DNA of 64,000 bases from Actinomadura rayongensis (GTDB lineage: Bacteria > Actinomycetota > Actinomycetes > Streptosporangiales > Streptosporangiaceae), in assembly GCF_009831215.1 (NCBI RefSeq), contig NZ_WUTW01000001.1, forward strand, positions 977,192 to 1,041,191. The letters are read 5' to 3'. Under the pieces are notes generated by a model. It saw only the letters and a program-made list of their open reading frames with translations. It was not told where the DNA came from and did no database searches. The position numbers were made by a program, and so were the translations under genes. Position 1 is the stretch's first letter. Each line of letters starts with the position of its first letter. This document shows positions 14,902 through 50,447 of this stretch, piece after piece.

Positions 14902-15027
14902 TCAGTTCCGCCCCGAACCATTGCACTCCGGACATGGCACCTCGACCGGAGCGTCCTCCTCCGTTTCGGCGCGTATTCCCGTTCCTTCGCACTCCGCGCA
15001 TTCCTCCGGCTTGCTGTGCTTTCCCAA
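14902..15027 (-). CDS. 41-residue CxxCxGxG zinc-finger protein (TTG start)
   Basis: A short frame from TTG 15027 to the stop at 14902 encodes 41 residues holding two copies of the DnaJ-type knuckle: CAECEGTG near residues 10-17 and CPECNGSG near 32-39, separated by an acidic linker. Two CxxCxGxG arms can bind one zinc. AGGAG stands 7 bases before the TTG, which decides the start. I know no characterised family for a stand-alone pair; comparable mini zinc-finger proteins occur in actinomycetes. A possible promoter (TTGTCG, 16 bases, TTTACT) lies upstream on the minus strand near 15065-15095. Followed by the DUF5709 gene. Confidence 0.7.
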   Translation of the reverse strand: MGKHSKPEECAECEGTGIRAETEEDAPVEVPCPECNGSGRN

Positions 15028-46567: not shown

Positions 46568-46762
46568 ATGGAGCCGGTCGAGCTGACGCGTCTCGCGGGT
46601 ACCTGCACCCGTGGAGACTGTCCGACGGTCTACCGCACGGACAGGGGGACGCTCGCCGTCCAGGGGAATCATCTCTCCGGCAACGAGTCGCCCGCCGGAG
46701 AAGCGATCGTCGAGATTCCCGACTGGTTGCTTCTGGAGGCGGCCCGTGCGCTTGGAGGGTGA
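46568..46762 (+). CDS. Small protein paired with DUF6879
   Basis: A 64-residue protein beginning MEPVELTRLAGTCTRGDCPT, with two Cys at residues 13 and 18 and a short C-terminal helix (EIPDWLLLEAARALGG). Proteins of this size and pattern often precede DUF6879 genes in actinomycetes (recalled, not checked). It heads a coupled three-gene operon with the DUF6879 protein and an XRE regulator, and GGAGG lies 5 bases before the ATG. Function unknown. Third-position GC is lower than in surrounding catabolic operons. Confidence 0.65.
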   Translation: MEPVELTRLAGTCTRGDCPTVYRTDRGTLAVQGNHLSGNESPAGEAIVEIPDWLLLEAARALGG

Positions 46763-47258
46763 CGACTGGACGCGTTTCTTCGACTCCTTCCACCGGGACG
46801 CCTTTCGGCTGGAGACACTTCCCGCCTACGGCGTCGCGAGCGAAGAGACGGAGTACCGGATCTGGCGGGAGACCGGACGCCTCGACGTCCCCGCCGACGA
46901 TGAATGGCTGGTGCGCCTGCGCGCGTTCCGGTCGGCCGGGCGGACGATCGGCCGCGTTCGCGTTCTCGCGCGCCCGCTGACGCAGTACATGAGGTACCAG
47001 TTCGCTTTTTACCCGTACAGTTCGGCGGCCGGCGAGAGCATCCGTATTCTCGATGTCACCGGTCGCGCCAATCCGGTCGCCGGCGCACAGGACTTCTGGC
47101 TGTTCGATGAATCGAAAGTCGTCCTCATGCACTACGCGGACGATGGGACGCAGACCGGACGCGAACTGCTTGAGGGTGCGGATCCGGCGCCTTATGTGGA
47201 GTGGAAGCGGCGCGCGCTCAGAGACTCGGTACCGTTCTCGGAGTACCGCGACGCGTGA
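46746..47258 (+). CDS. DUF6879-family protein
   Basis: A 170-residue protein of the DUF6879 type: residues about 5-35 (DWTRFFDSFHRDAFRLETLP), then a beta-rich middle (RIGRVRVLARPLTQYMRYQF-like) and the WLFDESKVVLMHYADDGT block. GTG 46746 has GGAGG 6 bases upstream and overlaps the preceding gene by 17 bases. DUF6879 proteins lie beside DUF5753 XRE regulators and may bind the same partner or ligand. The stop overlaps the XRE start as GTGA. No catalytic motif is visible. Confidence 0.82.
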   Translation: MRLEGDDWTRFFDSFHRDAFRLETLPAYGVASEETEYRIWRETGRLDVPADDEWLVRLRAFRSAGRTIGRVRVLARPLTQYMRYQFAFYPYSSAAGESIRILDVTGRANPVAGAQDFWLFDESKVVLMHYADDGTQTGRELLEGADPAPYVEWKRRALRDSVPFSEYRDA

Positions 47259-48109
47259 CGCTGGATCCAGGGCGGGCCGGAGCCGACCGCAGACAACTCG
47301 CGGCGGCCCGCCGCGACCTGCGCTCGGCGTCGGGCCTGTCCGGCGAACGGCTGGCCCGGCGCTGCCACATGAGCCAGTCGAAAATCTCACGGATCGAGAA
47401 CGGCAGAACGCTGCCTTCGATCACGGACGTCGAACGCATACTCCACGCACTCGGCGCGGACCGTGATACCGGAGAGGAACTCGTCCGCCTCGCGCGGACT
47501 GCGAACACGGAGTACCAGGACGTCAGGGCCTCGGTCCGGCAGGGCTTGCACCACCGGCAACGCGAACTGGCCGGACTCGATGCGGACGCCCGAAGGCTGA
47601 GCTTTTTCCTTCCCGCCCTGATCTCCGGGCTCCTTCAGACGCCGGCGTACATGAAAAGAGCGATGGACATGGCCGTGGAGCCCGCTCAAGGCGACACGGC
47701 ACGCGCCATAGCGCTCAAGCTCGAACGCCAAGCGGTCCTGCATGACGCGTCGAAAGCCTTCGATTTCCTGCTGACCGAGCAGGCCGTCCGGTGGCGGCTG
47801 TGTCCGCCCGAGACCATGTGTGAGCAGATCGACCGGATCATCGCCCTCTCGCGGCTCGACAACGTGCGCATCGGAGTCGTTCATCCGGGCCGGGACGTCG
47901 AAGTCGGGCCGATGAACACGTTCACGGTTTACGACGACCGATTGGTGACCGTGGAGATCTTCACCGGACGTGTCGTGCTGCGCGATCCCAAGGACATCGC
48001 CTACCATCGGCGGCTCTTCGCCTATTTCGAGCGTCACGCCCTCTGGGGAGACGATGCGAGGGCGCTGCTGGCCGATTTCTCCCGAGAATTCATGCGGGAA
48101 CGTGACTGA
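47255..48109 (+). CDS. XRE-family regulator with DUF5753 domain
   Basis: A 284-residue regulator. The helix-turn-helix is in residues about 15-70 (GLSGERLARRCHMSQSKISR, then IENGRTLPSITDVERIL), and the C-terminal 180 residues are a DUF5753 ligand-like domain with LLQTPAYMKRAMDM and FLLTEQAVRWRLCPPE. DUF5753 proteins are abundant developmental and secondary-metabolite regulators in actinomycetes. It is the last gene of the operon and lies directly upstream of the peptide/methyltransferase pair, so it is a candidate regulator of that pair. Codon bias is weaker than average. Confidence 0.92.
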   Translation: MTLDPGRAGADRRQLAAARRDLRSASGLSGERLARRCHMSQSKISRIENGRTLPSITDVERILHALGADRDTGEELVRLARTANTEYQDVRASVRQGLHHRQRELAGLDADARRLSFFLPALISGLLQTPAYMKRAMDMAVEPAQGDTARAIALKLERQAVLHDASKAFDFLLTEQAVRWRLCPPETMCEQIDRIIALSRLDNVRIGVVHPGRDVEVGPMNTFTVYDDRLVTVEIFTGRVVLRDPKDIAYHRRLFAYFERHALWGDDARALLADFSREFMRERD

Positions 48110-48174
48110 ACCTGCAGCCTTCGTCACCGGCGGCCTAGCGTCGTGTGCGAACGCTTCGAGGTGAGGAGTGCGGC

Positions 48175-48285
48175 GTGGGGAAGCATGCGGGGGACAAGCC
48201 GGTGGACAAGCCGTTCGAGCCGATCAAGCCGAGTCCGGACGGGGACCGGCCCGACAAGGGCGGCGCGCACGAGAAGGGCAAGTGA
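48175..48285 (+). CDS. 36-residue charged peptide, candidate RiPP precursor
   Basis: A short frame, GTG 48175 to TGA 48285, with AGGAG 6 bases upstream. The 36 residues are rich in Lys, Asp, Pro and Gly: it starts MGKHAGDKPVDKPF, has EPIKPSPDGDRPDK centrally, and ends with GGAHEKGK. It contains no Cys, Ser/Thr-rich core or hydrophobic stretch. The stop overlaps the methyltransferase start as GTGA, so the two are translationally coupled. A short precursor beside a stand-alone PIMT homologue is the arrangement of imiditides, in which one Asp is converted to aspartimide. The Asp-Gly at PSPDGD is the most succinimide-prone site. Membership in that class is inferred. Confidence 0.65.
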   Translation: MGKHAGDKPVDKPFEPIKPSPDGDRPDKGGAHEKGK

Positions 48286-49376
48286 GGCCGGTGCCGGGCG
48301 CGGGCGCCGGGTGGGCGGACGGGGCATGGCGGGCGGCGGTCGAGGCGGTGCCTCGGGAGTTGTTCGTGCCGGAACGCGGGTGGTGTGTTTCCGGGGACGG
48401 GGTGGGGCGGCTCATCGACCGGTCGGCTGATCCGGAGGGGTGGGCTGCGGCGGCTTACGCGGATTGCTCGGTCGTCACGCAACTGGACGACGGCGCGAGT
48501 GACGTTGCGACGGGAGTGGGCGAGTACAGCTCGTCGCTCTCCGCGCCGGGTGTCGTGCTGGCGTTTCTGGAGCTGCTGGACCCTTACGACGGTGACGAGG
48601 TGCTGGAGATCGGTACGGGCACCGGGTGGACGGCGGGGTTGCTGGCGCAGCGTCTCGGGGACGGGAGCGTCACCAGTGTCGAGGTCGACCGGGCCGTCTT
48701 GGAGGTGGCGGCCGGGAATCTTCGGCGGGCCGGGCGCTCGCCCCGGCTCGTCCTCGGCGATGGGGCGGACGGATGCCCGGACGGGGCTCCTTACGACCGG
48801 GTGCACGTCACGGCGGGGGTTCGCCGGGTGCCGTACGCCTGGCTGGAGCAGACGCGGCCCGGCGGGATGATCGTGTTTCCGTGGATGCCGGGGTGGGAAG
48901 GCGGCCACCGCACCCGGTTGACCGTCGTCGGTGATGGGACCGCTGTAGGGCGTTTCCATGGCGGCAGCGCGTTCATGATGCTGCGGTCCCAGCGTCCTCC
49001 CGCGCCCGCCGTGGACGGCGAGGTGCGACGGTCGTCCACCGACCTGGATCCCCGGCGCGTCGTGCGGACCTCCGCCGGAGCGGACGTGGCCGTCGCGGGC
49101 GCCCTGCCCGACGTCTACGGCAACCACACGGCCGCCGAGGACGGATCGTTCGATCTGTGGTTGTGGGCCGGTGATTCCAGCGCGCACGTTCATTACGCGC
49201 CCGACTACCGGCGGTCGGCGGTGGCGCAGCGTGGGCCGCGCGATCTGTGGGACGAGCTTCGGGACGTCTTCCTGCGCTGGGTCTCCTGGGGCGGCCCCGG
49301 GCGCGACCGGTTCGGCATGACGGTCACCGCCGACGGCGACCGCATCTGGCTGGACGACCCGCGCGACGTCCTCTGA
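48282..49376 (+). CDS. PIMT-like O-methyltransferase of RiPP type
   Basis: A 364-residue protein-L-isoaspartate O-methyltransferase homologue, much longer than housekeeping PIMT (about 210-230). PRELFVPERGW near residue 22 and SSLSAPGVVLAFLELLDPYD near residue 85 are PIMT-like; motif I is VLEIGTGTGWTAGLLAQRLG, and VHVTAGVRRVPYAWLEQTRP follows. Residues about 225-364 are an extra C-terminal domain as in graspetide and imiditide methyltransferases. GTG 48282 overlaps the peptide stop. No ATP-grasp or lanthipeptide synthetase lies nearby. It would methylate an Asp of the coupled peptide, which then closes to aspartimide. A terminator follows. Weak GC3 bias. Confidence 0.85.
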   Translation: MRPVPGAGAGWADGAWRAAVEAVPRELFVPERGWCVSGDGVGRLIDRSADPEGWAAAAYADCSVVTQLDDGASDVATGVGEYSSSLSAPGVVLAFLELLDPYDGDEVLEIGTGTGWTAGLLAQRLGDGSVTSVEVDRAVLEVAAGNLRRAGRSPRLVLGDGADGCPDGAPYDRVHVTAGVRRVPYAWLEQTRPGGMIVFPWMPGWEGGHRTRLTVVGDGTAVGRFHGGSAFMMLRSQRPPAPAVDGEVRRSSTDLDPRRVVRTSAGADVAVAGALPDVYGNHTAAEDGSFDLWLWAGDSSAHVHYAPDYRRSAVAQRGPRDLWDELRDVFLRWVSWGGPGRDRFGMTVTADGDRIWLDDPRDVL

Positions 49377-49428: not shown

Positions 49429-49629
49429 TCAGAGGTCGAGGGCGCCGGTGCGGGCGGCGGTCAGGACGGCGGCGAAATGGGGGGCGGGGAGGATGATCGC
49501 GCCTGCCTGGCGGTCGGTGGTGTCGCGGATGCCCACTCGGCCCTGGTCGGAACCGGCCTCGACGCAACTACCGTACTCACCGTTGGAGTGGCGGGACTTG
49601 CGCCAGTTGCGGGGTTCAAACGTGCTCAC
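49429..49629 (-). CDS. DUF397 domain protein
   Basis: A 66-residue protein beginning (GTG) STFEPRNWRKSRHSNGEYGS, the classical DUF397 opening (WxKSxxSxxxGxCVE), followed by VGIRDTTDRQAGAIILP and a short C-terminal helix. GTG 49629 overlaps the XRE stop as GTGA, with GGGAG upstream. DUF397 proteins act with XRE/DUF5753 regulators, as BldB-like partners. The pair is convergent with the peptide-methyltransferase genes. Confidence 0.92.
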   Translation of the reverse strand: MSTFEPRNWRKSRHSNGEYGSCVEAGSDQGRVGIRDTTDRQAGAIILPAPHFAAVLTAARTGALDL

Positions 49630-50447
49630 AAAGACTCCCGAATATTCTTCAGCAGTTGGTGGCTCTCCTCGGTGGACATGGCCTTCGACCTGATGAGGTC
49701 GTAGGTGTCCACCAGGTCTGCGATGATATCGGGGTCTTCGATAACCCGGCCCAGCTTGCCGACCGCGCTCTGCCAAGCGGCCAGCGAACTGCCTTTGCGG
49801 GGTTCCATGAGCTGGAAATCGCCGTGGAGGCCGGGGTAGGTGACGTTCGTCTGCGCGACGATCTGAACCTGAACGTTCCACTGCTCGGTCCGCTTGAGGA
49901 TCGCGTCGATCTGGTCACGGGCGAGATCCGGCCGGTTCGCGAGGCGCCGGAACACTCCTTCGTCCATGATCGCCAGGAGCCTGGCGGGGTCCTCGCCGTC
50001 CAGGATCCCCTGACGGCGGACCCGCTCTTCGGCGACGCTCTCTGCGGCCAACGGGATCAGGCCGTCGAGGGCGAGCGCCTTCACGTAGGACTCCGTCTGC
50101 AAGAGTCCGAAGACAGCCGCGAGTGAAAACGCCTTGATCGTTTTGGACGCCTTCTCGTGGTACGCGAGCGCCCGGGCCTGCTCGGGGATGCGGGAGACGT
50201 TGGCGACCTCGCGGTGACGGGTGAAGTAGTCGCCCGTCCCGAACAGTTCGTCTAGGAGTCGAGCCGTCGGCGGCTGTGGGGTGAGGTAGCCGAGTTCGTA
50301 GCGGCTGACCTGGGAGTCGTCGCAGATGAGCTTCGCGGCCAGCTCTCCCTGCGTCCAGCCCTTCTTCTCCCGATTTTCCCGGATCTCGTTGCCGTAGTAC
50401 TGGGCGAAGGACTCGTTGGGGGTTGTCTTCTTCGGGGGGCGGGCCAT
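49626..50447 (-). CDS. XRE-family regulator with DUF5753 domain (partner of DUF397)
   Basis: A 273-residue regulator. The helix-turn-helix is at residues about 18-72 (GNEIRENREKKGWTQGELAA, DSQVSRYELGYLTPQPP). The C-terminal DUF5753 domain includes VFGLLQTESYVKALALDG and RRQGILDGEDPARLLAIMDE. It is transcribed with the DUF397 gene. The upstream 190 bases (50448-50637) are comparatively A/T-rich and hold direct repeats GTTCTGCG at 50520 and 50558 that could be its sites. The family is sure; its targets are unknown. Confidence 0.92.
   Translation of the reverse strand: MARPPKKTTPNESFAQYYGNEIRENREKKGWTQGELAAKLICDDSQVSRYELGYLTPQPPTARLLDELFGTGDYFTRHREVANVSRIPEQARALAYHEKASKTIKAFSLAAVFGLLQTESYVKALALDGLIPLAAESVAEERVRRQGILDGEDPARLLAIMDEGVFRRLANRPDLARDQIDAILKRTEQWNVQVQIVAQTNVTYPGLHGDFQLMEPRKGSSLAAWQSAVGKLGRVIEDPDIIADLVDTYDLIRSKAMSTEESHQLLKNIRESL

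Follow-up and report, generated by a model that had tools for sequence, protein, structure and literature searches.

Introduction

A reading frame of 36 codons that overlaps the gene for a PIMT-like methyltransferase raises three questions: whether the pair encodes a RiPP and the enzyme that modifies it, which of the aspartates in the peptide would be modified, and what the regulators on either side of the pair signify. The pair considered here lies in the genome of Actinomadura rayongensis (6.87 Mb), in a stretch of 64,000 nucleotides that we call the window. In the portions of the literature available to us, type I pamtides are described as clusters of two genes, one for a Gly/Pro/Asp-rich precursor and one for a PAMT that carries a C-terminal domain (Lee et al. 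2023, PMC10787088). A 2026 review equates type I pamtides with imiditides, finds them most commonly in Streptomyces and Actinomadura, and names their link to biological function as the bigger challenge (PMC13001092, available text). The imiditide NmaA/NmaM comes from Nonomuraea maritima (Cao et al. 2023, via the available text of PMC13001092 and PMC11048544), and both NmaA and SpaA are modified by their enzymes, according to the available parts of PMC10787088 and PMC13001092.

A short gene coupled to a methyltransferase gene

The TGA of the short frame (48283-48285) overlaps the GTG of the methyltransferase gene (48282-48284) in the sequence GTGA (table 1). The original prediction had described a GTG frame with a good ribosome-binding site, overlapping in this way the gene for a 364-residue PIMT-like enzyme, and its coordinates proved exact. 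A scan of 47.9-49.6 kb found neither promoter nor terminator.

Table 1. Features of the locus, in positions of the window.
Feature	Position	Strand	Evidence or remark
DUF6879 protein, open frame, true start perhaps further in	46611..47258	+	stop overlaps inferred XRE start
XRE-type protein with DUF5753, possible regulator, start at GTG 47255 inferred	47255..48109	+	Pfam; stop 65 bases 5' of precursor start
Ribosome-binding site GAGGAG of precursor gene	48163..48168	+	six bases 5' of GTG 48175 (sequence)
Precursor peptide gene, 36 aa, GTG start, MGKHAGDKPVDKPFEPIKPSPDGDRPDKGGAHEKGK	48175..48285	+	family conservation, selection, chance control
Asp22 codon (PD-G), earlier candidate	48238..48240	+	0/8 alignment settings; Asp 5/6, Asn in A. 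rupiterrae
Asp24 codon (GD-RP), preferred modification candidate	48244..48246	+	7/8 alignment settings; 6/6 subgroup members
PAMT, PIMT-type aspartyl O-methyltransferase, 364 aa	48282..49376	+	GTGA-coupled; PF01135, model, motif
SAM motif LEIGTGTGW, residues 108-116	48603..48629	+	alignment of 15 sequences
C-terminal domain typical of RiPP-associated PIMT homologues	48999..49373	+	alignment, model, structure match
WVSWGGP (= WXXXGXP), residues 333-339	49278-49298	+	motif described in available text of PMC13001092
DUF397 protein	49429..49629	-	Pfam; convergent with PAMT gene
Second XRE-type regulator with DUF5753	49626..50447	-	Pfam

The peptide gene is real: it is under purifying selection and conserved in a family. 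When the 772 ORFs of 25-80 aa in the window were ranked with a family profile of 46 precursors, from which the window's own subgroup had been excluded (it used the hand-edited set of the alignment below, with L113 kept), the peptide came first with 25.7 bits, followed by an ORF in another frame with 6.8 bits. None of 5000 shuffles reached its score (best shuffle 17.4). Summed over 16 non-independent pairs of related precursors, pS was 0.37 and pN 0.09; the highest dN/dS of any single pair was 0.88 (L146-L152), and the exceptions to the synonymous bias sit among Nonomuraea pairs. For the window precursor itself, dN/dS was 0.26 against A. rupiterrae and 0.59 against the more distant Microbispora precursor, the latter comparison standing outside the 16-pair sum.

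These figures bear on a reading in which the short frame is a leader that controls the methyltransferase by translation, the enzyme being a spare protein-repair PIMT. The stop-start overlap would suit a leader, as would those relatives that keep the enzyme while an intact frame is absent. Against it stand the mostly synonymous changes in the frame, the recurrence of head, core and tail in other genera, the enzyme's low repair-PIMT score and RiPP-type extra domain (see below) and the published modification of NmaA and SpaA, which have the same build (PMC10787088, PMC13001092, available text). We hold the leader reading to be highly improbable, and treat the frame as a precursor gene.

The methyltransferase is of the RiPP-associated type

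The enzyme matches PF01135 with 90.3 bits and contains the motif LEIGTGTGW, which binds SAM in this family; L108 and G111-W116 are invariant across 15 aligned enzyme sequences. Its best NCBI model is TIGR04188, that of a graspetide-associated methyltransferase (280.7 bits over residues 12-354, cut-off 380), and the best repair-PIMT model gives 88.3 bits against a cut-off of 188 (NCBI equivalog). The latter score and the C-terminal extension speak against a housekeeping repair PIMT.

In the predicted model (pLDDT 90.5) the extension begins at about residue 240. Its elements follow in the order E248-253, H257-274 (in two pieces), E279, E290, E299, E312 and H322, then two strands, which is the published order with two extra strands at the end. 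The top Foldseek match is 1dl5, the T. maritima PIMT with a C-terminal domain. In a second structure comparison the same entry led by a wide margin in the number of aligned residues (297, spanning residues 3-362; Z 25.6). The large rmsd of this whole-chain comparison, 6.4, points to a different arrangement of the two domains in the modelled enzyme and in 1dl5.

A probable stand-alone imiditide cassette

By analogy with described systems, the locus is very probably a stand-alone imiditide (type I pamtide) cassette of two genes, which would place an aspartimide on one Asp of the precursor. The imiditide class had been proposed from the start, and it is borne out by the NmaA/NmaM-like build, the RiPP-type C-terminal domain and the WXXXGXP motif. 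The unit consists of a PAMT and a short precursor, and the scanned neighbours include no primary enzyme from other RiPP classes. No ATP-grasp, lanthipeptide or lasso enzyme was found among nine neighbour proteins from 43.2-54.7 kb (E 1e-10; one permease frame lay outside the scan), nor among seven neighbour proteins run against Pfam, in agreement with the earlier description of a PIMT homologue that acts alone. The precursor contains 17 % Gly, 17 % Pro, 14 % Asp and 19 % Lys; the published type I composition is 17.3 % Gly, 16.8 % Pro and 10.2 % Asp (PMC10787088, available text). With 36 aa and no Cys, it has the type I character of a peptide of about 45 aa that is rich in Gly, Pro, Asp and Lys and free of the tetracysteine motif.

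NmaA/NmaM is a described system of like build. A scan of named genomes (the best 80 of 554 relatives) found an N. maritima locus, L162, whose precursor is MGRHAEDPESQKVVPFDPKKRQDTDSADHNETPSGKHSDHGKGGKK and contains two Asp-His pairs, at 28-29 and 39-40. The available text of the review names a DEDGD loop for NmaM and Asp-His for NmaA (PMC13001092), and from species, loop and Asp-His we infer that L162 is NmaA/NmaM. Both loci have the two-gene build, and both precursors have an MG[KR]HA head, PF[DE]P, a core Asp and a basic GxH tail. The L162 enzyme is 48 % identical to that of the window and keeps WXXXGXP. The window peptide, however, is 10 residues shorter, and its core Asp is followed by Arg (Asp22 by Gly), whereas that of NmaA is followed by His. 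The DEDGD of NmaM is not kept as such in the window enzyme, where it aligns near AAEDGS; the tail of the window precursor, GGAHEKGK, is basic. Recognition in imiditides is expected to depend on charge, with a basic tail on the precursor facing an acidic loop in the C-terminal domain of the enzyme. The likeness to SpaA/SpaM of Streptomyces sparsogenes is one of description, in the available text of PMC10787088: two genes, no cyclase, a linear Gly/Pro/Asp-rich precursor and a PAMT of more than 300 aa with a C-terminal domain.

Two other classes were considered and rejected. Type II pamtides (cysimiditides) likewise have a PAMT as sole modifying enzyme, and some Cys-type peptides encoded next to PAMT genes share the MGKH head; type II precursors, however, require CXXCXGXG twice, and the window peptide has no Cys, which excludes this class. 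Graspimiditide methyltransferases (TIGR04188) are homologous to the window enzyme, but the latter scores below the family cut-off, and ATP-grasp is absent among the scanned neighbours.

The proposed chemistry can be outlined as follows. The upstream gene would yield a charged, linear precursor of 36 residues, and translational coupling would yield the methyltransferase from the same mRNA. By homology with NmaA/NmaM and SpaA/SpaM, the extra C-terminal domain of the enzyme would recognize the precursor, and the enzyme would use SAM to methylate the side chain of one L-Asp, for which the alignments point to Asp24 as the most likely target. Attack of the next backbone amide on the ester would then form the aspartimide, which may hydrolyse to isoAsp or Asp.

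A Cys peptide with an MGKH-type head, LGKHSKPEECAECEGTGIRAETEEDAPVEVPCPECNGSGRN, is encoded elsewhere in the window (14905-15027, minus strand, TTG start) and resembles a type II pamtide precursor. No PAMT was found within 1.5 kb of it. An 83 % identical copy in another genome (L292, in G011) is likewise without a PAMT. Matches to the Cys peptide numbered 20, in 12 of 40 genomes; among the 18 checked, 16 adjoin a PAMT and two (the window's and L292) do not.

Precursor and enzyme across genomes

MGKH-headed peptides of 28-44 residues precede homologous enzymes in relatives of the same genus. A precursor profile of 18 sequences, run over 59 genomes (the host genome and 58 relatives), gave 36 matches in 25 genomes, and coordinate comparison placed all 36 upstream of a methyltransferase match on the same strand, a count that is partly circular because some of the matches are rows of the profile. 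The distance to the methyltransferase was within about 0.2 kb for 35 of them, and the remaining one (G003) lies about 0.45 kb from the projected start. In the host genome just two matches reach E < 0.9: one is the window peptide, the other belongs to a further pair, on contig 2 (L096, L207). An iterated profile gave 26 upstream matches at E < 0.01, one of them false (L072; the profile held an untrimmed seed), and its antisense and downstream controls gave no matches at E < 0.01.

Among the five closest homologues (drawn from the best 80 of 554), intact precursors are present at L101 (A. rupiterrae) and L102 (Microbispora). The other three combine an open enzyme frame with a precursor that is decayed or unrecognizable. 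In L100 (A. rudentiformis) the region of the MGKH start is missing and there is a shift by one base, though a shorter frame that includes the core remains readable; L099, a metagenome assembly, retains the precursor tail alone (RPDKGGKHEKGK); no recognizable precursor was found upstream of the enzyme at L103. The enzyme frames there encode 368, 349 and 370 aa, respectively. Since the precursor is decayed or gone and the enzyme open at three of five, the pair is not strictly kept, and from these sequences the PAMT enzyme seems to outlive its substrate gene.

More distant homologues give a mixed picture. A looser filter finds a candidate precursor at 52 of the 80 named loci (best 80 of 554), from which we set aside L100 as decayed and L107 and L173 as doubtful. 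By a strict pattern, type I precursors stand at 27 of 62 places (window included) and 43 of the 80 named loci, Cys-type (type II) precursors at four of each (eight in all), and neither type at 31 of the 62 and 33 of the 80; the pattern misses at least L042, L102, L105, L109, L111, L121, L144 and L145. For many of the more distant homologues in these two sets a type I precursor was thus not found. Homologous methyltransferases lacking a conserved upstream peptide, which the original prediction had named as evidence against itself, do in part occur, both at L099, L100 and L103 and among distant homologues. In our judgement, the pairing of the profile matches and the published biochemistry outweigh the homologues without a precursor.

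The suggestion that the precursor might represent a new subgroup is not upheld. Many such precursors stand before the enzymes of relatives in Actinomadura, Microbispora, Nonomuraea and other genera, and the head, PF[DE]P, core Asp and tail are shared with L162. The window pair is a further member of the peptide family described in 2023.

Which aspartate is modified

The residue first proposed was Asp22, which precedes Gly in PSPDGD. Six DGDRP-type precursors are intact: those of the window, L101 (A. rupiterrae), L102 (Microbispora), L112 (A. terrae), L117 (A. flavalba) and L171 (Actinomadura sp.). Position 24 is Asp in all six and position 22 in five, A. rupiterrae having Asn there. For a wider comparison, the window peptide was aligned by MAFFT under eight settings with 45 other precursors, in a set edited by hand (four rows dropped, L113 among them for want of a core Asp; L114 and L121 added; L167 trimmed). 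Under seven settings the column richest in Asp (33-43 of 45) contains Asp24 of the window peptide and Asp28 of the N. maritima peptide. Under the eighth, a fast mode, the richest column holds 25 Asp, the window is gapped there and Asp24 stands in a column of 22 of 45. The column of Asp22 holds 2-11 Asp under all eight. A smaller alignment of 18 rows favours Asp22, which has an Asp-rich column there, so the choice of Asp24 rests on the wider set.

On these alignments we take Asp24 to be the modified residue, with moderate confidence. With Arg next to it, however, Asp24 is less well placed to close a ring than Asp22 with its Gly. A further point against Asp24 is that the modified Asp of NmaA is not numbered in the available review text, whose wording both Asp-His pairs, 28-29 and 39-40, would fit (PMC13001092).

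The same class with Asp22 as its site draws on the chemistry, Asp-Gly being the best former of aspartimide, on the Asp in five of the six subgroup precursors and on the 18-row alignment. It conflicts with A. rupiterrae, which has Asn there in a pair that is intact in other respects, with the failure of Asp22 to align with the family's conserved Asp under any of the eight settings, and with L145, whose core GDR..GG.H has a single Asp, the equivalent of Asp24. The original choice of Asp22 is thus unlikely, and Asp24 is preferred. Comparison can in this way separate a conserved Asp from a tempting Asp-Gly decoy.

Two further variations were seen by eye. The precursors of L101, L128, L204 and L205 have Asn-Gly where relatives have Asp. 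Since Asn-Gly closes to the same ring spontaneously, the first enzymatic step might be skipped in some precursors. Ten WD[RK]P[IV]PP precursors (L195-L199, L201-L203, L207 and L178) have Asp-Pro or Asn-Pro at the place of the core, where the usual aspartimide ring cannot form. In six of the ten, no Asp with another neighbour is left at that place, and the modification site may therefore have moved to the N-terminal half.

Regulators on both sides

The cassette follows a co-directional gene for an XRE/DUF5753 protein and faces a convergent DUF397-XRE/DUF5753 pair downstream. The interest of the locus lies less in the pair than in these regulators. Streptomyces uses XRE-DUF397 pairs to control differentiation and the production of antibiotics, according to the available text of PMC10364602. 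An association of DUF397/DUF5753 with graspetide loci has already been published (PMC13097080, PMC8939145, available text). No report of XRE/DUF5753 beside imiditides was found in the available imiditide, pamtide and cysimiditide literature, which was covered in part by text terms and did not include the original description.

XRE/DUF5753 genes occur far more often beside PAMT genes in Actinomadura than in flanking DNA, an over-representation apparently newly noticed for imiditides. Around the 60 PAMT loci of the genus (L039-L098, 4 kb per side where the contig allows), 534 kb of DNA contain 21 DUF5753 ORFs, spread over 20 loci. Twenty of the 60 loci supplied 40 flanks, at a distance of 5-24 kb, with two such ORFs in 758 kb; 40 arbitrary stretches, in which PAMT genes may occur, had six in 800 kb. 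The rate ratio is 14.9 against the flanks (p 8e-7) and 5.2 against the arbitrary stretches (p 8e-5), p values that are too small because paralogous loci are non-independent and because PAMT loci supplied part of the training set of the profile. The window's two regulators served as its seeds, and it may favour such loci. At the 20 matched loci the count was 11, against two in their flanks. The Pfam DUF5753 model gives at least 1585 matches in 40 genomes (about 356 Mb), or at least 0.44 per 100 kb. The host genome has 31 DUF5753 genes, and six of its eight PAMT-like places are at most 5 kb away from one of them. Among 200,000 random placements none did as well, though this null takes no account of clustering in variable DNA. 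Each of the two type I pairs of the genome has an XRE/DUF5753 gene on both sides, co-directional upstream and convergent downstream.

L117, L119 and L154 also stand between such genes, and no precursor was found at L154. The DUF6879 protein of the locus is the sole DUF6879 match of the genome. DUF6879 homologues were seen at 3 of 60 and 6 of 80 PAMT loci (partly overlapping sets); the 80 control and flank stretches contained none.

The upstream regulators of L096, L117, L119, L154, L074, L090 and L157 are 41-67 % identical to one another among the matches listed, and the window's upstream regulator is 28-35 % identical to them, again among the matches listed. A conserved neighbourhood is ruled out: none of the window's regulators was found in the flanking DNA examined around L099-L103, so it is the cassette, not the locus, that is shared with the closest relatives.

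The cassette might itself be part of an XRE/DUF397 locus, with the imiditide or its hydrolysed form as an internal signal read by the DUF5753 regulators, or with the cassette under their control. This would accord with the 20 of 60 genus loci that have a DUF5753 regulator within 4 kb, with the enrichment over flanks and random placements, and with the two regulators around each type I pair of the genome. Yet 40 of the 60 loci have no such regulator within 4 kb, the five closest homologues (from the best 80 of 554) have none in the flanking DNA examined, and co-location may reflect nothing beyond transcriptional control or a common position in variable DNA. We consider such integration decidedly unlikely, and the imiditide cassette remains our reading of the pair. 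In its general form, the proposal is that Actinomadura imiditides belong to XRE/DUF5753-DUF397 loci and that the aspartimide peptide, with hydrolysis as a built-in clock, is a putative cell-internal signal for the flanking regulators; we offer it as a speculation with a slim chance of being right. If it were true, signal reading would assign a function to a RiPP class without one. The co-location of PAMT genes with XRE/DUF5753 genes is itself a concrete lead on the regulation or function of imiditides.
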